Of a stretch of DNA of 64,000 nucleotides, positions 506 to 21,365 are shown piece after piece; the stretch's first letter is position 1, and every line of letters begins with the position of its first letter. The position numbers were made by a program, and so were the translations under genes. Under the pieces are notes generated by a model. It saw only the letters and a list, made by a program, of their open reading frames with translations. It did no database searches and was not told the DNA's origin. The DNA comes from Chitinophaga terrae (ex Kim and Jung 2007) (GTDB taxonomy: Bacteria; Bacteroidota; Bacteroidia; Chitinophagales; Chitinophagaceae), in assembly GCF_900107795.1 (NCBI RefSeq), contig NZ_FNRL01000026.1:1-64000 (forward strand), in the 5' to 3' direction.

Positions 506-1831
506 ATGAAAAATTCCGCTCGTAACATGGCATTGCCGTGCCTGATTATTTGTCTTATGCTACTTCAATCACAACGAATACTCGCCGAAAATTACCAAAT
601 ACCGGTAAAAATTGGAGAAAAAATCCCCAACATTACACTGAAAAATTTCATGAATGAACCAGGAAAAGAAGTTTTATTTAGTGATCTGAAAGGGAAAGTA
701 GTAATAATTGACTTTTTTGCTACCTGGTGCCCATCGTGTGTTGCATACTTGCCACACATGAATGATTTGAAGCAAAAGTTTGGTGATAAATTGCAGATTT
801 TGGTAGTTACAAAGGAATCCGAAGAAACAATAATTAAATACTCTGAAAAATATGGCAATATTAAGAACAATTCTATACCAATCCTCTGTAATGATTCAGT
901 ATTATCTAAACTATTTCCACATCTATCTATTCCTCATGAGGTCTGGATTGATACAAAAGGAGTAGTTCGAGGCATATCGGATGCTAAATTTGTGACTGCT
1001 GATAACATTGAAAATTTGATAGTTAATAACCAGCTTGCAATTCCTGTCAAAAATGATTTCTTTGACTTCGATCACACTCAAACACTTTCTTATAATCTCG
1101 CAAACCCTAAAAATAGACCTCAATTTTTATATCGTTCAACCTTTACTTCTCATTATCCAGGTGTAGTGTCACTTACAGGAAGCAAGGCCGATAGTATTTC
1201 AAAGACAATATATTTCGTAAACAATACGATTCTATCATTATATAGCTCCTTCATAGAAAAAGACCTCTGGGCGGGTCGTGTTGAAATTGAAGTGAAGGAT
1301 ACTACTCGTTTTGTCGCTCCAGCTGAATTAGTAAAAATCAACAAAGATTGGGACGAGTCAAATACTTTTTGCTACGAACTAACAACACCTGCCAGCCTGG
1401 ATCGTAAAAAAATTCAACGCTTAATGAAAGGAGATCTGGATCGAAACTTTGATCTCACGACAACTATAGTTGAAAAAATCAAAAAATGTTGGGTTGTTAA
1501 AATTTCGGATCAACGATTATTCAATAGAACTATTTTGAAAAAAGAAATTACTCTTGGAAAACCGAAAGCAATATTGATCGAAAATGCCCCTATGGATAAA
1601 TTAATAAAAAGATTAAATTCTTCGGATTTTGTAAATATTAATGCTCCCATATTTATAGATCAGACAGGATACAATGGAAAAATATTTATAGAAATACCTG
1701 TTTCTCTCTTTCCAGAGAACAATTCAGAAACAAATATTGAGCCGTTGAAAAAAATTCTAGAACAGAAAGGGCTAACATTAGTAGCTGCTAAGGTTCCGTT
1801 GAAAGTTTTTGTATTCAGAGATGCTCAATAA
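506..1831 (+). CDS. TlpA-like thioredoxin with C-terminal DUF3738-like region
   Basis: Probable periplasmic or envelope thiol-disulfide oxidoreductase. I place the start at the ATG at 506 (441 aa), because a signal peptide follows directly (hydrophobic residues 8-22). A longer frame begins with TTG at 407. Residues about 33-170 form a TlpA/redoxin domain with the active site W74-C75-P-S-C78. The last 60 residues contain an IDQTGYNGK stretch and end LTLVAAKVPLKVFVF, which resembles the closing part of DUF3738 (TIGR03435-type); that domain call is from memory of its motif. The middle third is unassigned. The gene lies 26 bp upstream of a SusC gene on the same strand, so the two are probably cotranscribed, and the protein may process or protect something taken up by that transporter. 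The DNA is AT-rich like the rest of the island. Confidence 0.85.
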   Translation: MKNSARNMALPCLIICLMLLQSQRILAENYQIPVKIGEKIPNITLKNFMNEPGKEVLFSDLKGKVVIIDFFATWCPSCVAYLPHMNDLKQKFGDKLQILVVTKESEETIIKYSEKYGNIKNNSIPILCNDSVLSKLFPHLSIPHEVWIDTKGVVRGISDAKFVTADNIENLIVNNQLAIPVKNDFFDFDHTQTLSYNLANPKNRPQFLYRSTFTSHYPGVVSLTGSKADSISKTIYFVNNTILSLYSSFIEKDLWAGRVEIEVKDTTRFVAPAELVKINKDWDESNTFCYELTTPASLDRKKIQRLMKGDLDRNFDLTTTIVEKIKKCWVVKISDQRLFNRTILKKEITLGKPKAILIENAPMDKLIKRLNSSDFVNINAPIFIDQTGYNGKIFIEIPVSLFPENNSETNIEPLKKILEQKGLTLVAAKVPLKVFVFRDAQ

Positions 1832-1857
1832 AAATTGGAAATTAAAAAAAAGGGATC

Positions 1858-4800
1858 ATGAAAAATTATAGGTTATTAATTTATATACATCTTCTAATAC
1901 TATTTGTCCATTCTAATAATGTCAATGGTCAAAGTGTGTCGGAAAGTGGAATTGTGATTACTGGTACTGTCCTTAGTAAGGATAAGAAAGTTGCTCTTTC
2001 TGGTGCCAGTGTAAAAATAATCGGAACAAATGTTGGTACTCAAACAGATGCCGATGGTAAATTTTCAATAAAATTAAATAATAAAAGCCAATCTCTGCAG
2101 GTAACATATATTGGCTTTGAGCCGTCAGTAATCGATTTAAAAAATGCAGATCATGATGGTAATATTACTGTATGGCTTCATTCTTTTGAAAGAACACTTG
2201 AAGCCGTTACAGTCTCTACTGGTTATCAAAATCTTCCAAAGGAAAGAGTATCTGGATCATTTGAAAATGTGAATAACAAAACGATAAATCAAAGAGTTAC
2301 TTCTACTGTAAAAAGCAGACTTGAAGGATTGACTACTATTGCATTTGATAAAGGTAATGCAAGGCCGCAAATGGTAATACGTGGTATTAGTTCTATTAAT
2401 GGCTCAAATGCTCCGTTAATAATACTCAACGGGTTTCCTTTTGAAGGCGATTTTGATAGAATAAATCCAGATGATATCCAGGATATTACCATTCTTAAGG
2501 ATGCTGCCGCTTCCAGTATATGGGGAACTAGGGCTGGAAATGGAGTTATAGTAGTAACAACTAAAAAAGCCTCTTTTAATCAACCCTTGAATGTTAGTTT
2601 GAATAGCAATGTGACATTCATACAAAAACCTGATTTATTCTATCTGGATCAGATGACTCCTTCTGAATACATTGATGTAGAAAAATTTCTTTTCTCAAAG
2701 GGGTATTACAACTCTCAAGAGAATAATAAGTACGCTCGTCCCTTTTTAACTCCTGTTGTGGAGCTTCTTATAAAGCAGCGGGATGGGTTAATTAATAATG
2801 CAGATGAATTAATTGACTCATACCGTAATCAATCAGCCAGAAAAAGTTATCAGGATTTAATTTATAAAACTGGGTTTATTCAACAACATACAGTTAATCT
2901 TAAAGGAGGTGATACCAAAGGTAATTACTTTTTATCCGCTGGTTATATAGGAATGGATGATGAATTCGGAGCTATTAATAATCGGATTACAATAAATTCA
3001 GATGCAAACTACCGTTTTAATACCAAATTCAAAATGAATTCTGGAATCTCCTATATTCAAAGGAACTTACGATCGGGAGCGCCCACCTTTCAATCAAAAA
3101 ATTCAATATATCCATATTTTAGGTTAAATAATAGTGACGGTAGAGATGCCGGTATCCCTCTGTATCGGAAGCCATACTTAGATACAGCTGGAGCAGGAAA
3201 ACTACTGGATTGGAATTATTATCCAAATTCGGACTATAGGCATTCAGTCACTAAGCAGAATGGTCAAAACTTAATTGCCAGAATAGGATTACAGTACGAT
3301 TTATTTAAAGGCTTTAGTATCCAAGGCAATTACCAATATGAAAGGCAAGATGATCAAATCTCCGTGCTTAACGATATCTACAGTATAACGACCAGGAATC
3401 TTATTAACAAATTTACAATAGTAGACGCTCAAAGTGGTAATGTAAAGTATAACCTACCATTTGGAGCAATTGGTGATGAGTCCAATGGTTCCATGCAAAC
3501 ACATAATGCCAGAATACAGTTAAACTATAATCTGAATGCAAAAGACTTTGTTGTTAACGCCATTGGAGGTTTTGAAGTAAGAAGCATTTTATCGAAAAAT
3601 AATTCGTTCCGAAATTATGGATACGATCCAGATGTGCTTACTATTTCTAAAGTTGATTATGTAAATCCATATCCAACATTTGTAAATGGAACAAATGAAT
3701 ATATCCCGTTTTTAAGTTCCCTGGGAGAAACATCAAATAGGTATGTTTCGACATATTTAAATGCGGGGGTTACATATCTTGAAAAATACATTTTGACTGC
3801 TAGTGGACGAAGGGACGCCTCAAATTTATTTGGAGTAAATACAAATGATAAGTGGCAGCCACTTTGGTCGGTTGGTGGTGCATGGATTGTTACAAACGAG
3901 AATTTTTTCAGTTGGAGCGCATTATTATCACTAAAATTAAGAGCCACCTATGGATATTCAGGAAATGTTGACTTATCTCGTTCAGCAGTAACTGCAATTC
4001 AGTATTTGCCTTTACCGAGCAGTTATACAGGCTACCTTATGGCCTATGTTAGCCAGTTTGCCAATCCAGACTTACGATGGGAAAAAAATCGAATAATCAA
4101 CTTTGGTATTGACTTCAATTTGAAAAATAATATTGCTACCGGCAGTATTGAGGCTTATTTTAAAAAGGGCTCAGATTTATATGGCGCTACCCCAATCGAT
4201 CAGACAGCGGGAGTTGGAGAGACTATCGTGAAAAACGTTGCAAATATGAAAGGGCACGGTGTTGAGCTTAATATCACAAGCAATATTATTAACCGAGCTG
4301 TAAAATGGAGTAATACTGTGATTTTTAGCTATAATAAATCAAAGGTAACTAACTATTATTTAAGTGCAGACATAGGTTCCAGTTATATAAATAGTGGAAC
4401 CTCCATTAAGCCCCTGGTCGGTTATCCAGTATATTCTATATTTACTTACAAATATGCTGGTTTGGATGATATAGGGAATCCTCAAGGTTATATTGAGGAC
4501 AAGACATCCACTAACTATACAAGTATATTGGGTACCGGTACAAAAGTAAAGGATTTGGAATATGGAGGTTCAGCTGTTCCTCAATATTTTGGATCATTCA
4601 TAAATACGGTGCGATGGAGAGGATGGACAATATCTGCCAATATTGGATATAAGTTTGGGTATAGCTTTATAAAGCCTTCAATAAACTATTCTTCATTGTT
4701 TGCAGGAATAATTCAATCCTCTGATTATGCTAACAGATGGCAACAGCCTGGAGATGAAAAGCATACTGATATACCAGCTATGATCTACCCTGCAGTTTCG

Positions 4801-5061
4801 GCCAGGGAAACTTTCTACAACAGTTCAGCTTCCCTAGTTCGTAAAGGTGACCACATTAGATTGTCATATGTGAATCTCAGCTATGATTTCAATCAGACCT
4901 TCCTAAAATCTTTAGGGATAAACCAGTTCCGAATATATACTTCTGTTTCAAACCTGGGGATATTATGGAGAAAGAATAAGGATGGAATTGATCCAGATTT
5001 TATAGCTGGTCAAATTCCTCCAGGAAAGGCCTTTTCTGTGGGTATTCAAACTAATTTTTAA
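1858..5061 (+). CDS. SusC/RagA-family TonB-linked outer membrane protein
   Basis: Outer-membrane TonB-dependent transporter of the SusC type, 1067 aa, the usual size for the family. A signal peptide occupies about residues 1-25. A carboxypeptidase-regulatory-like beta domain follows (about 34-112, with the typical GASVKIIGTNVGTQTDADG core), then a plug domain with RGISSINGSNAPLIILNG and the VTTKK end, then a long barrel ending in an aromatic-terminated strand (TNF). It has no STN domain, so ECF sigma signalling is not expected. It sits between a TlpA-like gene (26 bp) and a SusD gene (10 bp), forming one operon. The substrate cannot be told from sequence; without glycosidase genes nearby, peptide or another ligand is as likely as a glycan. 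Confidence 0.93.
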   Translation: MKNYRLLIYIHLLILFVHSNNVNGQSVSESGIVITGTVLSKDKKVALSGASVKIIGTNVGTQTDADGKFSIKLNNKSQSLQVTYIGFEPSVIDLKNADHDGNITVWLHSFERTLEAVTVSTGYQNLPKERVSGSFENVNNKTINQRVTSTVKSRLEGLTTIAFDKGNARPQMVIRGISSINGSNAPLIILNGFPFEGDFDRINPDDIQDITILKDAAASSIWGTRAGNGVIVVTTKKASFNQPLNVSLNSNVTFIQKPDLFYLDQMTPSEYIDVEKFLFSKGYYNSQENNKYARPFLTPVVELLIKQRDGLINNADELIDSYRNQSARKSYQDLIYKTGFIQQHTVNLKGGDTKGNYFLSAGYIGMDDEFGAINNRITINSDANYRFNTKFKMNSGISYIQRNLRSGAPTFQSKNSIYPYFRLNNSDGRDAGIPLYRKPYLDTAGAGKLLDWNYYPNSDYRHSVTKQNGQNLIARIGLQYDLFKGFSIQGNYQYERQDDQISVLNDIYSITTRNLINKFTIVDAQSGNVKYNLPFGAIGDESNGSMQTHNARIQLNYNLNAKDFVVNAIGGFEVRSILSKNNSFRNYGYDPDVLTISKVDYVNPYPTFVNGTNEYIPFLSSLGETSNRYVSTYLNAGVTYLEKYILTASGRRDASNLFGVNTNDKWQPLWSVGGAWIVTNENFFSWSALLSLKLRATYGYSGNVDLSRSAVTAIQYLPLPSSYTGYLMAYVSQFANPDLRWEKNRIINFGIDFNLKNNIATGSIEAYFKKGSDLYGATPIDQTAGVGETIVKNVANMKGHGVELNITSNIINRAVKWSNTVIFSYNKSKVTNYYLSADIGSSYINSGTSIKPLVGYPVYSIFTYKYAGLDDIGNPQGYIEDKTSTNYTSILGTGTKVKDLEYGGSAVPQYFGSFINTVRWRGWTISANIGYKFGYSFIKPSINYSSLFAGIIQSSDYANRWQQPGDEKHTDIPAMIYPAVSARETFYNSSASLVRKGDHIRLSYVNLSYDFNQTFLKSLGINQFRIYTSVSNLGILWRKNKDGIDPDFIAGQIPPGKAFSVGIQTNF

Positions 5062-5071
5062 ATTTTATTGT

Positions 5072-6442
5072 ATGCGCATATCACTTTATTTGAAATATAA
5101 CTATTTAACTTTTCTCCTTCTTTTATGCTTAACTACAGGATGTAAAAAATATCTTGATGAAAAGCCGAGAAAAAATCTAACAGTTCCTTCTACACTTAAA
5201 GATTTACAAGCTCTTCTTGATGAAAATAATACTATGAACATTGGTCAAGCAAATGTCAGTGATGCAGGCACTGATGATTATTATCTTACAATGGAAGATT
5301 GGAATAGTTTAGAGAACGATGGTGATCGAAATAGTTATATCTGGGGCGATGAACTATTTTATAATTCACCCAATAATCAATGGCAAATTCTTTACAAACA
5401 GGTATATACAGCAAATGTTGTCTTAGAATTTGTAGATAAAGTTCAGCCTGGGGAAGATATGGTTACTAGAAATAAAATAAAAGCCGCTGCACTTTTTTTG
5501 AGGGCAAGAGCCCATTTCACTGTGTTAATGACTTGGGCTAAAGCTTACAGTTCAAATAGTGCTTCGAACGATCCAGGAATACCTCTAAGGCTACTGTCTG
5601 ATTTTAATATTCCTTCAAAGAGGTCATCAATAGAGCAATGTTATGATCAGATATTAACGGATTTGACCACATCTATTTCCATATTTCCCGTCGTGAAAGA
5701 ACACGTAATGAGACCCTCAAAGGCTGCTGCCTGGGCATTAATTGCCAGAGTGTATCTTAACAAAGCTGATTATGTAAATTCACTAAAAGCAGCTGAAGAG
5801 AGCTTGAAATTAAACGATAATTTGATGGATTTTAATACAATTGATTCTTCGTCCACATATCCCATTCCGCGGTTTAATTCAGAGATACTGTTTTCCTGTT
5901 CAGGTGGTTGGCGCACACTGTATAACTTTACTGCCAAGATTGATACAGTTCTTTTTAGAATGTATGAAGATAATGATTTAAGAAAATCACTTTTTTATGC
6001 TACTAATGAAAATGGAACAAAAGCTTTCAGAGGAAGTTACGATGGTTCTTTCGATTTCTTTCTGGGTCTGGCAACGGATGAAATCTATTTAATCAAAGCT
6101 GAATGCCAGGTAAGACTTGGTAACATAGAGTCTGGATTACAAACATTAAACCAGCTGTTGGTTAAACGCTATAAATCCGGCACATATATTAATAAATCAG
6201 GTTTGGATAAAGTCGTAGCCTTACAAACTATAATTAATGAAAGACGAAAGGAACTTTTAATGCGCGATATTCGCTGGCAAGATATTAAGCGCCTTAACAT
6301 TGATAATTCATTACAGCCTATAACTATTAAACGTATCATTGGAACCAATACATATGAACTAAAGCCCAATGATCCGAGATATGCACTTCCAATCCCTACA
6401 GTAGTGATTAGTTTGACTGGAATAAGCCAGAATCCAAGATGA
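5072..6442 (+). CDS. SusD/RagB-family outer membrane lipoprotein
   Basis: Surface lipoprotein that would form the lid of the adjacent SusC transporter and bind its substrate. It is 456 aa, rather short for SusD proteins. The lipobox LTTGC puts the lipidated cysteine at residue 24, followed by the usual KKYLDEKPR start of the mature protein. The TPR-like helical region contains an AAALFLRARAHF stretch typical of the family. The C-terminal part has the NERRKELLMRDIRWQDIKRL signature seen in most SusD proteins. It begins 10 bp after the SusC stop and ends 10 bp before the convergent small gene at 6453. Confidence 0.92.
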   Translation: MRISLYLKYNYLTFLLLLCLTTGCKKYLDEKPRKNLTVPSTLKDLQALLDENNTMNIGQANVSDAGTDDYYLTMEDWNSLENDGDRNSYIWGDELFYNSPNNQWQILYKQVYTANVVLEFVDKVQPGEDMVTRNKIKAAALFLRARAHFTVLMTWAKAYSSNSASNDPGIPLRLLSDFNIPSKRSSIEQCYDQILTDLTTSISIFPVVKEHVMRPSKAAAWALIARVYLNKADYVNSLKAAEESLKLNDNLMDFNTIDSSSTYPIPRFNSEILFSCSGGWRTLYNFTAKIDTVLFRMYEDNDLRKSLFYATNENGTKAFRGSYDGSFDFFLGLATDEIYLIKAECQVRLGNIESGLQTLNQLLVKRYKSGTYINKSGLDKVVALQTIINERRKELLMRDIRWQDIKRLNIDNSLQPITIKRIIGTNTYELKPNDPRYALPIPTVVISLTGISQNPR

Positions 6443-6452
6443 GCAGAATATA

Positions 6453-6758
6453 TTAATTATTTGGCCGGTATGCTACATTGTAGGCTTCTGGACGATCTGC
6501 GGGATCACCGGCATCAAGTAGTGGGACATCTATATATGTTATTGAAGGGTCTTTCTCAGCTAGGATTTTACATACTTTTCCCCCACCTATGCAATCTGGC
6601 ATTACGGAAATAACGTAGCTCTCTGGATTATCGGTTGGAAGACCTGGTAGACGATACCACCACATTGGTACACGGTATTTATTTGCGATTGCTGTTTTGG
6701 ATGCAATGCCAAAGGCTATGAGTAAAGCAACAGCGATTATTAATCTTAAGAGTTTCAT
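6453..6758 (-). CDS. Small secreted two-cysteine protein, copy 1
   Basis: A 101-aa protein with a clear signal peptide (about residues 1-25, hydrophobic IIAVALLIAFGIA). The mature part keeps a pair of cysteines in the form DCIGGGKVCKILAEKDPS and a C-terminal LLDAGDPADRPEAYN. It is a paralogue of the product of 6867-7172 with the same length and the same conserved core. It resembles small secreted Bacteroidota proteins grouped as DUF6520, but that name is from memory. The function is unknown. Its neighbour upstream is the second copy, then a MauE-like gene, which suggests that the cysteines form a disulfide and that the protein belongs to a thiol-redox context. Confidence 0.75.
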   Translation of the reverse strand: MKLLRLIIAVALLIAFGIASKTAIANKYRVPMWWYRLPGLPTDNPESYVISVMPDCIGGGKVCKILAEKDPSITYIDVPLLDAGDPADRPEAYNVAYRPNN

Positions 6759-14815: not shown

Positions 14816-15565
14816 TCACTTATTATCCCATTTAAAGTATTTCACGCCTACTATGATAAAAACCAGGGAATACGCTACAGAAGCGAAAAAGGCATAGGTA
14901 GTTTCCATATTCCAGGTAGCCGGCGCCAACCCTGCTGCCAATACTTTCCTAACAGTTCCGTAAGGCGACCAGGTAGCAAGCAATTCAACCTCTTTGCCTA
15001 AAACGCCAAATTCGCCGAACATGCCTATCATGATAAACGCAAAGTATACCAGGCGGGTAGTGGAGTTCACAGACTCTGGGTTACGGATCAACCCGACAAT
15101 AGCCTGGCCAAGTCCCAGGTATACGCCGCTCCCGATCACCGCCATCAATAGCCCAACGAGATAGCCGGAGGCGGAGATCTCGATATGATCAAAGAAATAG
15201 CCTACAACAAATATCAGTACCGTCATCAATACGATCATCGCTATCTGTACAACCAGGCGGCTGGTCATGATCGTCCAGCCGGCAACCGGGCCAACCCTCA
15301 GGCGCTGGAATATGCCCCTGTCGCGGTCCCGGGCTACGGAGTTGGAGTACCCCATCAACCCGATACTTGTTAACCCGATAGTGATGCAGGAAGAAAGTAC
15401 GAACACCCCGCCCAGTTTAGGAACCAGTCCTTTCCAGGAAACAAGGATCAGCAAAGGAACCAGCAACACCATCCTGAAAGAACGGCGATTACGCCATAAA
15501 GTAGTAAAATCGGCTTGCAGCAGGGCAGATAATATAGCGGAGTTTTTAGGAATATTTGTTTCCAT
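14816..15565 (-). CDS. ABC-2 type transporter permease
   Basis: A 249-aa inner-membrane permease with about six predicted hydrophobic helices. The first follows a basic stretch (TTLWRNRRSFRMVLLVPLL), and the RDRGIFQRLRVGPVAGWTIM loop is characteristic of ABC-2 permeases. It pairs with the ATPase gene 15 bp upstream on the same strand. ABC-2 systems export drugs, peptides, lipids or polysaccharide; the substrate is not shown. It lies downstream of a two-component system and a radical SAM gene, which makes peptide export or self-protection worth considering. Confidence 0.9.
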   Translation of the reverse strand: METNIPKNSAILSALLQADFTTLWRNRRSFRMVLLVPLLILVSWKGLVPKLGGVFVLSSCITIGLTSIGLMGYSNSVARDRDRGIFQRLRVGPVAGWTIMTSRLVVQIAMIVLMTVLIFVVGYFFDHIEISASGYLVGLLMAVIGSGVYLGLGQAIVGLIRNPESVNSTTRLVYFAFIMIGMFGEFGVLGKEVELLATWSPYGTVRKVLAAGLAPATWNMETTYAFFASVAYSLVFIIVGVKYFKWDNK

Positions 15566-15580
15566 TTCAGGCAGTTGATT

Positions 15581-16369
15581 TTATGAACGGATAGCAGAAC
15601 CGGTAAGACCGATGAACACATCTTCGAGGGTAACCTTTCCCTTACGAACCACTTCCAGCACCGCGGGATTGTTAAGGTTACGTTCTATCAGGGCGGCAGG
15701 AGAATCAATAGCAATAATACTTCCGTGGTCGATGATAGCGATACGATCGCAAACCGCTTCCGCTTCTTCCATGCTATGAGTAGTGATAACAACAGCATGC
15801 CCCAGGTCCCTGAACTGCTCGATCCGTTGCCAGAGATACCGCCTCGATTGCGGGTCGAGGCCCGTAGTTGGTTCGTCCAGGAGGATCAGCCTGGGATTAT
15901 GGATAGTGGAGATCAATAAAGAAACCCTTTGCTGCTGGCCGCCAGACAACTGGGCGATCTTCTTCCTGGCTGCATCTGCCAGGTTGATGGATGCGAGTTT
16001 TTCACGGATCTCATCTTCCGTGATGGCCACTCCATAGATCCGGGCATACAGGCGAACGATCTCGGTGATGGTGAGCTCCTGCTGAAAACTGGTTGCCTGC
16101 AACTGCACGCCCATATTGGCGCGGGCATGCAGGGGTTTGGCGGCTATATCGAAACCGCATACGGAAATGGCTCCTGCTGTAGGTTTCAGGAGGCCTTCAA
16201 TGGCGCTCAGGGTGCTGGTTTTACCGGCGCCGTTAGGTCCCAGCAAACCGAATATCTCCCCTCCTGCCACTTCAAACGAAATTCCCCTGACTGCCGTGAA
16301 GGTTCCATACTTTACATTCAGGTGATCCACTTCCAGGATCGGCGCCTGGCGGGTTACTTGATTACTCAT
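15581..16369 (-). CDS. ABC transporter ATP-binding protein
   Basis: A 262-aa ATPase energising the adjacent ABC-2 permease. Walker A is G44-PNGAGKT51, the signature LSGGQQQRV begins at 141, Walker B is LILLDEP at 161-167, and a switch histidine appears in VVITTHSMEEAE. The C-terminal LEDVFIGLTG is typical of DrrA/CcmA-like exporter ATPases. It lies 118 bp downstream of the response regulator gene on the same strand; whether it shares that transcript is not clear. Confidence 0.95.
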   Translation of the reverse strand: MSNQVTRQAPILEVDHLNVKYGTFTAVRGISFEVAGGEIFGLLGPNGAGKTSTLSAIEGLLKPTAGAISVCGFDIAAKPLHARANMGVQLQATSFQQELTITEIVRLYARIYGVAITEDEIREKLASINLADAARKKIAQLSGGQQQRVSLLISTIHNPRLILLDEPTTGLDPQSRRYLWQRIEQFRDLGHAVVITTHSMEEAEAVCDRIAIIDHGSIIAIDSPAALIERNLNNPAVLEVVRKGKVTLEDVFIGLTGSAIRS

Positions 16370-16487
16370 TAAGCTGTTGTTTTAGGCTTGGACCCGAAAA
16401 ATACATCAGGCCGGGGCAGCAATGTAAAACAAAAAGGTAAAAGCCTGAAAAATGACGGCGAAGAGGGGTAGTTTACCGGTTAACTGC

Positions 16488-17123
16488 TTAAAGGGAGATC
16501 AGTTGGCGGCGCAATGCCTCCAATACCATTCCTGTTCTGCTTTGCACGTTCAGCTTATGAAAAAGTGTTTCACGGTACCCGTCCACCGTTCTTTCCGTTA
16601 CGTTCATTTTTGCAGCGATGGCCTTGTAGGTCAGATCGCTGCAGGCGAGGCTAAGGAATTCCCTTTCCCGTTCGGTGAGGATCTGGTTTTGTTCGGTCTG
16701 TATCAGGAGCCTGCGATAGTTGACGTTAGCGGCATCGTTATAGTATGCACCGGTATCGTTAACTTCTCTCAGCGCCTTTTCCAGTTCAGCCGGATGGATG
16801 TCTTTTAACAGGTAAGCGCAGCATCCCGCTTTCAGCATTTCTATGATAGAAGCGTCATTGTCTTTCATTGAAAGCGCTATGACCTTGGTATTGGGATAAA
16901 GGGACAGGATACGTTGGGTGGTGGCGGCGCCGTCTAATACCGGCATATTTACATCTATCAGGATAATATCCGGGGGAATAGGCAGTTCGGTGAGCTTAGC
17001 CAGAAGTTCTTCCCCGTTCACTGCCTCAACGATGATTTGAAAACCTTCAAAACTGTTGATCAGCAAACTTAGGGATTTAAGGAATAGTTGATGGTCGTCT
17101 GCAATGCCAATGGTAATGTTCAT
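16488..17123 (-). CDS. NarL/FixJ-family response regulator
   Basis: A 211-aa two-component regulator. The receiver domain (about 1-120) has the acidic pair D9-D10, the phosphoacceptor D57 in LIDVNMP, and the conserved K in the LLKDIHPAEL stretch. A LuxR-type helix-turn-helix (about 145-211) contains LTEREREFLSLACSDLTYKA. It overlaps the kinase gene by 4 bp (ATGA), so the two are translationally coupled cognate partners. It probably regulates its own operon and perhaps the ABC exporter downstream. Confidence 0.95.
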   Translation of the reverse strand: MNITIGIADDHQLFLKSLSLLINSFEGFQIIVEAVNGEELLAKLTELPIPPDIILIDVNMPVLDGAATTQRILSLYPNTKVIALSMKDNDASIIEMLKAGCCAYLLKDIHPAELEKALREVNDTGAYYNDAANVNYRRLLIQTEQNQILTEREREFLSLACSDLTYKAIAAKMNVTERTVDGYRETLFHKLNVQSRTGMVLEALRRQLISL

Positions 17124-17905
17124 AAAGATTGTACTAAAGGTAAATTGATCACAACGGCTGTTCCGCCTGCGGTAGTTACTTCCCAGTTGATGTTGCCTTT
17201 CAGCAGCTTTGTCCGGTGTTGCATATTCCGGATGCCAAGTCCTTTTGCCATAACTGATTTATCGAAGCCGGCGCCATCATCTGCTATGATAACGATCAAT
17301 TGCTGGTTGCTTTGCCGCATGCTGATGTCGATGATCTGGGGTTGGGCATGTTTGATGCTGTTCTGAATGGCTTCCTGGATGATACGGAACAGGATGATCT
17401 GGGGCTCGGCCTGCAACGGTAAAACCATTACATCGTAAGAGAATTTAACGGTGATTGCCTTGCTGGCATTTATCCTGTCGATTTCTGCTTTGAGATTATC
17501 TACCAGGCTGAATTGATCGAGCCACTGACGGCTGAACGATTTCGACAGCGCCCGCAGGTGCTGGATAGCGGTGCTGAGCGTGGCTTCCGCAGTAAGTAAC
17601 GTATCCGGCACAATGGCCATATTACGCTGGGTTACATTGATCAGCAACTTGGTGCTACTGAGTAGCTGCCCGATGTCGTCGTGCAGTTCCTGGCCCAAAT
17701 GAGCAAAGGCCTCTTCCTGCATTTCGATCTGGGACCACATTAGCTGTTTGTCGTACTCTTCTTTCATTAATTTAAGCTGATGTAAATGTGCATCCTGCTT
17801 CTTTTTATAACTTATTACAGCTGCAATCACCACCAGTCCCATGACGATGACCAACAATGTAATAAATGTTACAGCTACAAAGAGATCCTGGTTGACCGGA
17901 AGCAT
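17120..17905 (-). CDS. Sensor histidine kinase, NarL-partner (HisKA_3) type
   Basis: A 261-aa membrane kinase with one N-terminal transmembrane helix (about 10-32), no extracytoplasmic sensor domain, and a short coiled stretch. The dimerisation/phosphoacceptor region carries H75 in QELHDDIGQLL, and the HATPase_c domain (about 165-258) contains IIQEAIQNSIKHA and ADDGAGFD. Because it lacks a sensor of its own, it may take its signal from the polytopic membrane protein encoded immediately upstream, whose gene overlaps it by 31 bp. It overlaps the regulator gene by 4 bp. Confidence 0.93.
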   Translation of the reverse strand: MLPVNQDLFVAVTFITLLVIVMGLVVIAAVISYKKKQDAHLHQLKLMKEEYDKQLMWSQIEMQEEAFAHLGQELHDDIGQLLSSTKLLINVTQRNMAIVPDTLLTAEATLSTAIQHLRALSKSFSRQWLDQFSLVDNLKAEIDRINASKAITVKFSYDVMVLPLQAEPQIILFRIIQEAIQNSIKHAQPQIIDISMRQSNQQLIVIIADDGAGFDKSVMAKGLGIRNMQHRTKLLKGNINWEVTTAGGTAVVINLPLVQSL

Positions 17906-18516
17906 ATTACCCCTTTTATGAGTATAATATACAACAGGTAATTGGATAATGAGTTGAGGACAGAGAAAAAGTGCCTGGCCCTGGCCGTATCATTTTCCAA
18001 TAGCAGGTTGTAAAATGCATTTACGCTCACTGAGGCTGCGAAATACACAAAAAAAGCAAGGGTTAACCAAAAATATGGATGCCGGAATATAGACGATTCA
18101 TCGGGGGTTATTGAAAAAAAGGATAAAAGGCACCAGCTAATAACCAAAAAGCTTTCAATGGTGATGTTGATACCCGGAAAGGCCCTCCATCCGCCCAAAA
18201 CAAAGCTGTAGAACAAAGAAACTATCCCGAAAATAAAAATGGAAACACCCATTAATAACCTGAAGCGGTAGTCTCTTATTCCAGATCTCAGGATAATCGT
18301 AATCAGACTATATTCCAGCACCACGAAAAAGTGATATACTATAAAAAACGCTTGCCCTTTTGTCCCGATAAACTCTACGATCACCTCTGTAACTATAGAT
18401 ACTGCCAGCAATAAGCTAAGCATTCTCACTTCCCTGTATTGAAGGTGAAATAAGCTCATTACAAAGCAGGCAACCAGTAATACATAGTAGGCGTAAACCC
18501 ATCCGTTCATCGGCAC
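17875..18516 (-). CDS. Polytopic membrane protein of unknown function
   Basis: A 213-aa integral membrane protein with about six or seven hydrophobic helices spread over its whole length. I recognise no named domain. The gene overlaps the kinase by 31 bp and starts 15 bp after the stop of the 182-aa protein gene, so it is in the same operon. A seven-helix-like sensor or a partner of the sensor-less kinase is a reasonable guess; similar proteins beside NarL-type kinases are familiar in Chitinophagaceae, from memory. Confidence 0.75.
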   Translation of the reverse strand: MPMNGWVYAYYVLLVACFVMSLFHLQYREVRMLSLLLAVSIVTEVIVEFIGTKGQAFFIVYHFFVVLEYSLITIILRSGIRDYRFRLLMGVSIFIFGIVSLFYSFVLGGWRAFPGINITIESFLVISWCLLSFFSITPDESSIFRHPYFWLTLAFFVYFAASVSVNAFYNLLLENDTARARHFFSVLNSLSNYLLYIILIKGVICFRSTRISL

Positions 18517-18531
18517 AAAATATTGGTTAAT

Positions 18532-19080
18532 TTATTTTAAGTGGCTCATGTCGGCTGTTGCCAGCGGAGAATTATGCGCTTTCAATGCCTCGAATATCTG
18601 ACCCAAAGACTCCAGTCCTTTACCTCCTCTTCCATTACCTCTTTCCTCGGTATTCGGATCGTCGGGGTCTCCCTCCAACATCCGGTTATCAATAGCTTTC
18701 TGCAGCAAATGCGCCTGCCCTAACTGCACAAACCCAGCATCCAATCCCTGGGCGGCCAGGCTGATCTTCTGGTTGGGCTCCGGGATCGCAAAATGAAAAC
18801 GAACGTATTCACAGTTCGGCTGGCTTAGGATACGCATCAGCGATGCTTTACTGAAATCGATAGCATACGTATCCTGGAACGCTTGTCCCACTTCGGGATG
18901 GCTCTGGATGTAATTATAAAAATTATTCAGCATTCCGAAAAAAGCGCCCACTGTTACAGGCATTCCATAGGTTTCTGTGGTGCTGGTAAATGGCATGTTG
19001 TAGTTGAGTTGCTCTGAACTTGGCTCCAGGTAACCCTGCCCGTTACATGCATAACCGGCATAAGACATTTGATCGCTCAT
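18532..19080 (-). CDS. Conserved small protein, possible substrate or signal
   Basis: A 182-aa soluble protein with no signal peptide. The N-terminus is rich in Tyr, Gly and Asn (YAGYACNGQGYLEP, Cys12). The core around residues 80-100 reads SLMRILSQPNCEYVRFHFAI (Cys90), a pattern I associate with a widespread unnamed family of small Bacteroidota proteins having an RIL..PGC..IR.YYG core. The C-terminal third has an acidic DPDDPN stretch followed by a flexible GNGRGGKG. It is encoded 86 bp downstream of the radical SAM gene and 15 bp upstream of the membrane protein and kinase genes. It could be a modified peptide precursor, a signalling partner or neither. I cannot assign a function. Confidence 0.65.
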   Translation of the reverse strand: MSDQMSYAGYACNGQGYLEPSSEQLNYNMPFTSTTETYGMPVTVGAFFGMLNNFYNYIQSHPEVGQAFQDTYAIDFSKASLMRILSQPNCEYVRFHFAIPEPNQKISLAAQGLDAGFVQLGQAHLLQKAIDNRMLEGDPDDPNTEERGNGRGGKGLESLGQIFEALKAHNSPLATADMSHLK

Positions 19081-19129
19081 ATTTGTTATCAGTTTAGTGT
19101 AAACAAATATTTTACTTTTTTACTATAAC

Positions 19130-19153
19130 AATACCGGGATTTTCCCCGGTATT
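19130..19153 (-). terminator. Hairpin between radical SAM and small-protein genes
   Basis: AATACCGGG (19130-19138) pairs with CCCGGTATT (19145-19153) around six bases. It begins 14 bases beyond the radical SAM stop. There is no U-run on the minus strand, so it may be an attenuator or an RNA-processing or stability element that sets different levels of the two products. Confidence 0.5.
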
Positions 19154-19166
19154 CTTCTTCAATAGT

Positions 19167-21365
19167 TTACAGATGCAAAAGTCCCTGCCTGTATAAGGTG
19201 TTAACCGGTTTGTTATCCCAGAAAAGTTCAAAATCCTCCAGCCCTGCCGCTTCATAACTGGCTTTAATTTCCTGTAACGTATATACTTTAGGGTTATCTA
19301 TCGCCAGGGAAGGCAGCAGGCCGGCCAGCCATCTTCCCTGTTCGGGGGCCACACTAATGCTCATTTTTTCCTTTTTCCCCTGGAAAGTAAATGAGGCCAC
19401 TTCCCAGGTATTTCCTTTTTTCGATTTGGTAATGATCTCCATTGTTGGCTGATGCCCCAGGTAGATCACCTTTGTTGTAGGTTTGATGGTTCCGGGTTCC
19501 GGCTCCAGCAGCGCATTGGTAATGAAGTCGGGCGGCACAGAGGTCTTTGGCACTTTAAAATCGAACCATTTAGACAAAGGATGATCCAGGCAGGCCCCAT
19601 GCATAAAGTTAAACAGGGATTTTTTCAAGCCAAAGCTGAATGCTTCGTGATCAGCCCCTGTAGGATCGATATGCATGATATCATTATTTGCGAAGGCTCC
19701 GACAACAGCAGTTTCTTTTTCTACTTTGAATTTGGCAGGTTCGAGTCCCACGGGGCTATGGGCCGTCATGGTGAACTGGTGCCAGAAGGCGCTTTGTAAA
19801 ATACCGGCTGCAAACATCTGCCTCACCATTTCCAGCGCGTCTATGGTTTCCTGGGCCGTTTGCGTAGGGAAACCATACATCAGGTAAGCATGCACCATAA
19901 TGCCCGCTTCACTGAAATGCCTGTTCACCCTGGCTACCTGGGCTACCGTAATCCCTTTCTGGATCAATCCCAGCAACCGGTCCGACGCTACTTCAAGCCC
20001 GCCTGAAACCGCAATGCATCCCGAAGCCTTCAGCAGCAGGCACAGGTCCCTGGTAAAACTCTTTTCAAAACGGATATTCGTCCACCAGCTGACGGTGAGC
20101 TTTCGTCGGATGATCTCCAGCGCTAAAGCCCGCATTAAGGCCGGGGGCGCCGCTTCATCCACAAAGTGGAAGCCCGTTTGCCCCGTTTGAGCGATGATCT
20201 CCTCCATCCTGTCGCAAAGCAGGGAAGCTGTCAACGGCTCATACACCCTGATATAATCCAGGGAGATATCGCAGAACGTGCATTTACCCCAGTAGCAGCC
20301 ATGCGCCATGGTCAGCTTGTTCCACCGCCCATCGCTCCACAGGCTGTGCATAGGGTTAACTACTTCGATGGCAGATATGTATTGGTCCAACAACAGATCG
20401 CTGTAGTCAGGCGTTCCTACCTGCGACTGCTTATAATCGCAGGTTTTTGAATCGTTGATATAAGTTACCTTGCCATCCTGCAGCAGGAAAGTGCGTTTCA
20501 AGGCTTCTACCGGTCTTTCTCCCTTAATATGCTGCAGCAGGTTTTCAATAGGCGCCTCGCCATCATCGAGGGTGATAAAATCTATAAACTCAAATACCCT
20601 GGCATCGCTCAGCGACCGTAGTTCGGTATTGGGAAATCCTCCTCCCATGACCACTTTTACAGCCGGCCAGTGCTGGCGTATATACTGGCCGCAACGCAGG
20701 GCTGCGTACAGGTTGCCGGGGAAAGGCACTGACAGCGCCACCATCGAAGGCTTTATTTCTTCTAGGTATTTTGCCAGCAACTCTATGAGCAGGGTATCTA
20801 TATATGTGTAGGGCGCTTTCAGCGCTTCATACAATTCATCAAAACTATTGGCAGAGCGGCTTAATTTCTCCGCATACCTGCTAAACCCGAAATGAGCATC
20901 CACGCACTCCATGATCAGGTCGGAAAGATCTTCCAGGTACATAGTGGCCAGGTGTTTGGCCCTGTCCTGTATCCCCATTGATCCGAAAGCCCAGTTCAGA
21001 TCATCCAGCTGTGCGAAGCGGGATGCTTCAGGCAAATAATCACGTTTGCTGATCAGGTGCGCCAGGGTCGGATTCTTTCCCTGCAGGAAGCTGATCACCC
21101 CGTCGATGGTTTGAATATATTCTTTTTGAAGTACCAGTATCCTTTTACTGTTCTCTGATATCTCTTCAACCGGGTTGGCTGCGATATAACCGAATAACTC
21201 CTGTAATCCTTTCCTGCAAAACAAGCGCAGGGTTACTTCTATACCCAGGTCTGCCTGCCGGGAAGGAACCTGTTTGGTGTTCAGGAACCCTTTCAGGTAT
21301 GCAGTAGCCGGGTACGGTGTATTGAGTTGTGTAAATGGCGGCGTTATCAGGAATACAGAATTCAA
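19167..21365 (-). CDS. Cobalamin-binding-type radical SAM protein
   Basis: A 732-aa protein. A cobalamin-binding-like domain (about 200-300, with VALSVPFPGN and KVVMGGGFPNTEL, no DxHxxG motif) precedes a radical SAM domain. Its iron-sulfur cysteines are C357-YWGK-C362-TF-C365, a CX4CX2C spacing rather than the usual CX3CX2C; I confirmed this codon by codon. Downstream TIM-barrel motifs include FHFVDEAAPP and SGGLEVASDRLL. The N-terminal ~200 and C-terminal ~150 residues are specific to the subfamily. Proteins of this class catalyse methylation or other radical chemistry on peptides, lipids or small molecules. The substrate is unknown. The next genes on the strand encode a small protein and a two-component system. 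The start at 21365 has a TATTTTTG box 19 bp upstream. Confidence 0.88.
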   Translation of the reverse strand: MNSVFLITPPFTQLNTPYPATAYLKGFLNTKQVPSRQADLGIEVTLRLFCRKGLQELFGYIAANPVEEISENSKRILVLQKEYIQTIDGVISFLQGKNPTLAHLISKRDYLPEASRFAQLDDLNWAFGSMGIQDRAKHLATMYLEDLSDLIMECVDAHFGFSRYAEKLSRSANSFDELYEALKAPYTYIDTLLIELLAKYLEEIKPSMVALSVPFPGNLYAALRCGQYIRQHWPAVKVVMGGGFPNTELRSLSDARVFEFIDFITLDDGEAPIENLLQHIKGERPVEALKRTFLLQDGKVTYINDSKTCDYKQSQVGTPDYSDLLLDQYISAIEVVNPMHSLWSDGRWNKLTMAHGCYWGKCTFCDISLDYIRVYEPLTASLLCDRMEEIIAQTGQTGFHFVDEAAPPALMRALALEIIRRKLTVSWWTNIRFEKSFTRDLCLLLKASGCIAVSGGLEVASDRLLGLIQKGITVAQVARVNRHFSEAGIMVHAYLMYGFPTQTAQETIDALEMVRQMFAAGILQSAFWHQFTMTAHSPVGLEPAKFKVEKETAVVGAFANNDIMHIDPTGADHEAFSFGLKKSLFNFMHGACLDHPLSKWFDFKVPKTSVPPDFITNALLEPEPGTIKPTTKVIYLGHQPTMEIITKSKKGNTWEVASFTFQGKKEKMSISVAPEQGRWLAGLLPSLAIDNPKVYTLQEIKASYEAAGLEDFELFWDNKPVNTLYRQGLLHL

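Follow-up and report, generated by a model that had tools for sequence, protein, structure and literature searches.

A seven-helix sensor that is a protein of its own is known from the sensory rhodopsin II/HtrII pair, in which the sensor lies next to a membrane-bound transducer feeding a histidine kinase. Other described systems close to the locus studied here are LiaFSR and LiaFSR-LiaX of Firmicutes (PMC7191749, PMC10269926), and the LytS-type kinases such as BtsS with the 7TMR-DISM/7TMR-HK receptors (PMC10653868). We analysed a stretch of 64,000 nucleotides (nt) from Chitinophaga terrae (contig NZ_FNRL01000026.1, positions 1 to 64,000; the window), which carries four linked minus-strand genes for a 182-residue protein (p182), a membrane protein, a histidine kinase and a response regulator. 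Gene-order and family comparisons indicate that this four-gene core is a real, Bacteroidota-wide and self-contained signalling unit. The cassette type is apparently undescribed so far; we found no description of the gene set in the open-access literature, though one may exist elsewhere. We propose, with a probability of roughly 0.7, that the four gene products make up a self-contained signalling cassette, and that the regulator binds a palindrome and raises expression of its own cassette. The features concerned are as follows, in window coordinates.

18532..19080, minus strand: p182, first gene of the cassette, 182 residues.
17875..18516, minus strand: membrane protein, predicted seven-helix bundle, proposed detached sensor.
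17120..17905, minus strand: histidine kinase (HisKA_3/HATPase_c) with one N-terminal transmembrane (TM) segment and without a sensor domain.
16488..17123, minus strand: NarL/LuxR-type response regulator, proposed palindrome binder.
19132..19151, no strand assigned: palindrome TACCGGG-N6-CCCGGTA, proposed operator of the cassette promoter, centre near -42.
19104..19111, minus strand: AATATTTG, -7-like promoter element, matching TAnnTTTG at 7 of 8 positions.

The p182 and membrane-protein genes are separated by 15 base pairs (bp), the membrane-protein and kinase genes overlap by 31 bp and the kinase and regulator genes by 4 bp. The distance from p182 to the kinase is constant (638–676 bp) in all 23 cassette-bearing Chitinophaga genomes, whereas the intervals to the outer genes vary, from 74 to 7107 bp between the upstream radical S-adenosylmethionine (SAM) gene and p182 and from 1555 to 4743 bp between the kinase and the downstream ATP-binding cassette (ABC) permease; this difference tells the units apart. 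Relatives of the membrane protein occur in 50 of 296 family genomes by single-sequence search, and in 48 of 296 Bacteroidota genomes and 30 of 140 genera by profile search of a phylum sample. They keep the order of small gene, membrane protein, kinase and regulator, with short gaps or overlaps. Among 63 membrane-protein entries, 61 have a small gene upstream, 58 a kinase and 52 a regulator downstream, where some losses come from short flanks and some cassettes are entered more than once. A second cassette is present in the same genome (L220, contig C33:42500-49500, locus 1497-4197), and encodes a 141-residue protein with CPTYC near its end, a membrane protein, a kinase and a regulator. The tight linkage of these four genes, pointed out in a preliminary description of the window, is thus a feature of a real unit that is widespread across relatives.

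We compared the proteins of the cassette with known families. The kinase matches HisKA_3 (26.3 bits, cut-off 24) and HATPase_c (41.5 bits, cut-off 26.4) and has its putative phospho-acceptor, His74, within ELHDD. It has a single hydrophobic segment, and no sensor domain was found in it, as the preliminary description had it. The regulator matches Response_reg (81 bits) and GerE (49.6 bits) and carries Asp57. By these matches the two are assigned to the HisKA_3 and NarL-LuxR classes of two-component proteins; a PADLOC search gave nothing but a weak match to the C-terminal part of the regulator. The membrane protein belongs to no Pfam or NCBIfam family, and 15 members scanned against Pfam matched no 7TMR-DISM or LytS-type model. 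Its AlphaFold model, built from seven sequences, has seven helices with a mean predicted local distance difference test (pLDDT) score of 80.5.

p182 has no match in Pfam, NCBIfam or PADLOC and no signal peptide, TM segment or hydrophobic segment, and a PDB sequence search returned matches at chance level (best E 0.47). Its invariant features are Cys90 and a DP-x2-EERGNG motif. Profile comparison shows p182 to resemble four other groups of cassette small proteins (hhalign 92–96%), and similarity to the lipoprotein group could not be demonstrated in this way. The small proteins are highly divergent, with 41 clusters among 57 distinct proteins, and some appear by inspection to be lipoproteins or membrane-anchored. 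A CPP or CPxxC motif lies within the last 45 residues of 18 of them, with 0.12 expected after shuffling.

The gene unit, its spread, and the putative operator and its position all come from comparison of sequences. In the 23 genomes the region upstream of p182 contains the palindrome TACCGGG-N6-CCCGGTA, or one much like it, and after it a conserved element resembling AATATTTG. The composite of CGGG-N6-CCCG, 22–27 nt and TATTTG is found in 23 of 23. A generic scan places the palindrome 21–23 nt ahead of TATTTG in 14 genomes, and in the remaining nine picked an overlapping neighbour repeat, shifted arms or a degenerate copy. The -7 promoter consensus of Bacteroidota is TAnnTTTG (PMC6847099), and the match of AATATTTG to it places the centre of the palindrome near -42. 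The -7 element is weak and a -33 element is not clear, which suggests activation. Both arms are altered together in L171. A sigma-70 and terminator scan gave results below shuffle expectation and was not used.

The site before p182 is the only one in the window, with no other at fewer than three mismatches, and the full-length palindrome has a single exact match in the whole genome. We read five near-matches in this genome; four lie within genes, and the fifth, on contig C41, is a candidate target. Nine full-length exact palindromes elsewhere in the genus were also read and rejected as candidates, five being inside open reading frames (ORFs) and the intergenic ones terminator-like or unclear.

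Outside the p182 clade, the palindrome precedes the first gene in three of eight other cassettes (L099, L181 and L182), whose regulators are 55–61% identical; at most one mismatch in 12 positions was allowed, and the background P of about 1e-5 is a guide, since the pattern was picked after the sequences had been viewed. L092, L106 and L185 have relaxed matches. This specific pattern was required, as generic inverted-repeat scoring of other cassettes was uninformative. The first genes of L099, L181 and L182 are unlike p182 or just distantly similar to it, so the site appears to follow the regulator. A flipped palindrome, for example ACCCCGTTATTTTACGGGGT, lies ahead of the first gene in the S-type cassettes L194, L103 and L118, which have more distant regulators. 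It is possibly the operator of a related regulator.

We looked for further composite sites in the genus. The 23 p182 genomes hold 18 beyond p182, against 6.7 expected from a reversed control (P 2e-4, counting related genomes as independent), and the 56 Chitinophaga genomes lacking p182 hold 16 against 16.3 expected. These extra sites are suggestive of further targets. One operon is preceded by the composite site in this genome (G000) and in G314, G316 and G332, all p182 carriers. It encodes a SAM-dependent methyltransferase (TIGR00027), a class I glutamine amidotransferase and a YpdA-family putative bacillithiol disulfide reductase, and is a probable second target of the regulator. In this genome the site is at L277 (contig C41:58500-72000, locus 3976-6670), where the palindrome and TATTTG are 21 nt apart and the ATG follows TATTTG after 70 nt; the others are at L270, L271 and L272. 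In G313 and G367 the composite site precedes a gene for a ferritin-like protein, with a flavin adenine dinucleotide (FAD)-type oxidoreductase gene adjoining (L273:1984-2030, L274:3550-3596).

From these comparisons we infer binding of the palindrome by the regulator, the sign of control, the kind of signal and the role of p182. The seven-helix membrane protein, a sensor detached from its kinase, would take up the signal and control the kinase, which is encoded by the next, overlapping gene and has one helix as its sole membrane part. The kinase would then phosphorylate the NarL-type regulator, which would bind TACCGGG-N6-CCCGGTA near -42 of the p182 promoter and raise its own cassette. A few further promoters are probably targets of the regulator as well, among them that of the methyltransferase/amidotransferase/YpdA operon. 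p182, which comes first and varies most, would be the main output and probably feeds back on the membrane protein, or presents the signal to it.

Several observations weigh against this proposal. The rule behind the 61 of 63 upstream genes is loose, a few of those ORFs are probably spurious, and the cassettes are partly repeated. Not all cassette small proteins are provably related, and the AlphaFold model of p182, from four sequences, has a pLDDT of 40.5, gives no fold and was not used in a fold search. Strict matching finds the operator in only three of the eight regulator relatives outside the clade, the palindrome may serve another protein or function at the RNA level, and the excess of further sites treats related genomes as independent. 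Finally, every one of the 23 Chitinophaga cassettes is downstream of the radical SAM gene, and this constant position could reflect a weak functional tie.

We extend the proposal more tentatively to the phylum: a Bacteroidota-wide four-part class may exist in which a detached seven-helix receptor belonging to no known family is paired one-to-one with a small, fast-diverging partner protein, cytosolic or lipoprotein and often with a CPP or CPxxC end. Equally tentatively, the partner would set specificity, and the regulator would mainly control its own cassette through the palindrome.

A different role for p182 is possible, if on balance somewhat unlikely. It would be the sensed or sensing partner, such as a ligand-binding protein or an inhibitor of the membrane protein, with other operons such as the YpdA operon as the outputs and a signal of thiol or redox type. 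The first gene varies most among cassettes, and its product may be cytosolic, a lipoprotein or membrane-anchored, as expected of a specificity part; the composite operator before the YpdA-containing operon in four genomes also points this way. YpdA, the CPxxC motifs and the invariant Cys of p182 would fit such a signal, which is a guess. Against it, only the site at p182 is present in 23 of 23 genomes while the YpdA-operon site is in four, p182 itself has no CPxxC, and the redox part is a reading of motifs.

The three remaining genes of the block are neighbours of the cassette.

19167..21365, minus strand: radical SAM enzyme, B12-type, 732 residues, TTG start, independent neighbour.
15581..16369, minus strand: ABC ATPase, DrrA-like, neighbour with its own history.
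14816..15565, minus strand: ABC-2 permease, neighbour, paired with the ATPase.

The gaps are 86 bp between the radical SAM gene and p182, 118 bp between the regulator and the ABC ATPase, and 15 bp between ATPase and permease. All seven minus-strand ORFs of the preliminary description are present, with the overlaps that it gave, and family searches identify the radical SAM enzyme, both two-component proteins and the ABC pair.

ABC_tran and ABC2_membrane are both above cut-off in the ABC pair, and the ATPase is under the narrower TIGR01188 (drrA) cut-off (248.7 against 312). The pair could be an output of the regulator, with the cassette running it as a pump for resistance or export. It is on the same strand downstream, and beside the cassette in 21 of 23 genomes, but the 118-bp gap, the lack of an operator ahead of the pair, the FtsX-type gene inserted between regulator and ATPase in relatives (L188), and the occurrence of ABC pairs where there is no cassette make this unlikely. 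The pair and the cassette may have a looser tie.

Less probable still is that the palindrome is a terminator of the radical SAM gene or an RNA hairpin, with the cassette read through from that gene. In this genome a strong inverted repeat does lie soon after the radical SAM stop codon, but no T-run follows it, and it stands at fixed spacing upstream of a conserved -7-like element. Moreover, the palindrome accompanies p182 where p182 is kilobases away from the radical SAM gene (L161, L163-L166), and is missing after the radical SAM gene there.

The radical SAM enzyme was described as cobalamin-type in the preliminary description; the Radical_SAM match is above cut-off, and the B12-binding match is below threshold. 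The ORF starts with TTG at window position 21365, as in several relatives that have no obvious ATG there, and its cluster motif (GCYWGKCTFC, window 20271-20300) is C-x4-C-x2-C rather than the usual C-x3-C-x2-C. A PDB sequence search gave no match for the enzyme. Its nearest NCBIfam model is TIGR03975, a maturation C-methyltransferase of ribosomally synthesized and post-translationally modified peptides (RiPPs), with 94.4 bits against a cut-off of 281.85. A scan of species genomes found at least 590 relatives. Among the best 80 of these (66–84% identity, nearly full length), the flanks differ, common neighbours reflect genus-level synteny (for example in Flavobacterium) or broad families such as response regulators, and no neighbour or precursor gene is conserved beyond genus-level synteny.

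Within Chitinophaga the enzyme is present in 74 of 79 genomes and the cassette, traced by p182, in 23 of 79, leaving 51 of the 74 enzyme-bearing genomes without p182. Of the 296 phylum-sample genomes, 53 carry the enzyme and 48 a member of the membrane-protein family, and several hold just one of the two. Genes are inserted between the radical SAM gene and p182 in L177-L179 and L187, on the opposite strand in L177, L179 and L187. The radical SAM gene lies near an ABC permease in six genomes where the cassette is missing; in the four of these that were mapped gene by gene (L173, L174, L175 and L186), it is close to the ABC pair with opposite-strand genes between. In L018, L045 and L047, a group with shared synteny, the radical SAM gene converges with a different cassette, made up of lipoprotein, membrane-protein, kinase and regulator genes.

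C. qingshengii, C. polysaccharea and C. eiseniae have the seven genes in this same order, which is thus not chance but is limited to a single Chitinophaga group. The idea of the preliminary description, of one locus for a peptide natural product or signal in which p182 is modified by the radical SAM enzyme, exported by the ABC pair and sensed by the two-component system, draws on the shared strand, the conserved order and the RiPP-type nearest model, and is hardly credible given the enzyme's unrelated neighbours in most relatives (the very finding that the preliminary description named as refuting it), the many enzyme-bearing genomes without p182, the genes inserted between enzyme and p182 in some relatives, the cassettes elsewhere that encode p182-like proteins but show no radical SAM gene in their examined flanks, the far sub-threshold model score and the lack of an obvious leader or core peptide in p182. 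Judged by their neighbourhoods, the seven genes do not make up one system; enzyme and exporter appear to be independent neighbours outside the cassette.

If the proposal is right, Bacteroidota hold a common, unannotated kind of signalling module whose sensor, kinase and regulator are separate proteins, as is a variable small partner. The probable binding site of the regulator and one probable further target are named here, which makes binding and output directly testable. A false lead is also removed, since on present evidence p182 is no substrate of the adjoining radical SAM enzyme.

Comparison with known systems places the locus as follows. The radical SAM enzyme resembles the TIGR03975 C-methyltransferases in being a B12-type radical SAM protein with weak similarity, but is far under their cut-off and has no precursor gene kept beside it. 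Like sensory rhodopsin II, the membrane protein of the cassette is a separate protein, with seven predicted helices. Its predicted model can be superposed on 7-TM receptors and sensory rhodopsins along almost all of its length (Z about 12–13, a value that helical bundles can reach through their common arrangement alone), and Foldseek gave nothing below E 0.06. Unlike sensory rhodopsin II, it has no conserved retinal Lys in helix 7, so it is not a retinal protein. LytS-type kinases and 7TMR-HK receptors likewise pass polytopic membrane sensing to a histidine kinase, but there sensor and kinase are one protein, and the cassette membrane proteins match no such Pfam model. LiaFSR shares an accessory membrane protein, a small kinase without a sensor domain and a regulator of the same class, and enterococcal LiaX, an extra protein tied to LiaFSR, parallels the extra protein of the cassette. 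However, the cassette kinase scores 83.8 bits against 450 for the LiaS model (the only one listed, and streptococcal), and the membrane protein has seven predicted helices and is not recognised as LiaF by Pfam or NCBIfam. Thus, the cassette is classed as a variant two-component system that would work like the LiaFSR and LytS-type systems and that the family models compared here do not assign to them.

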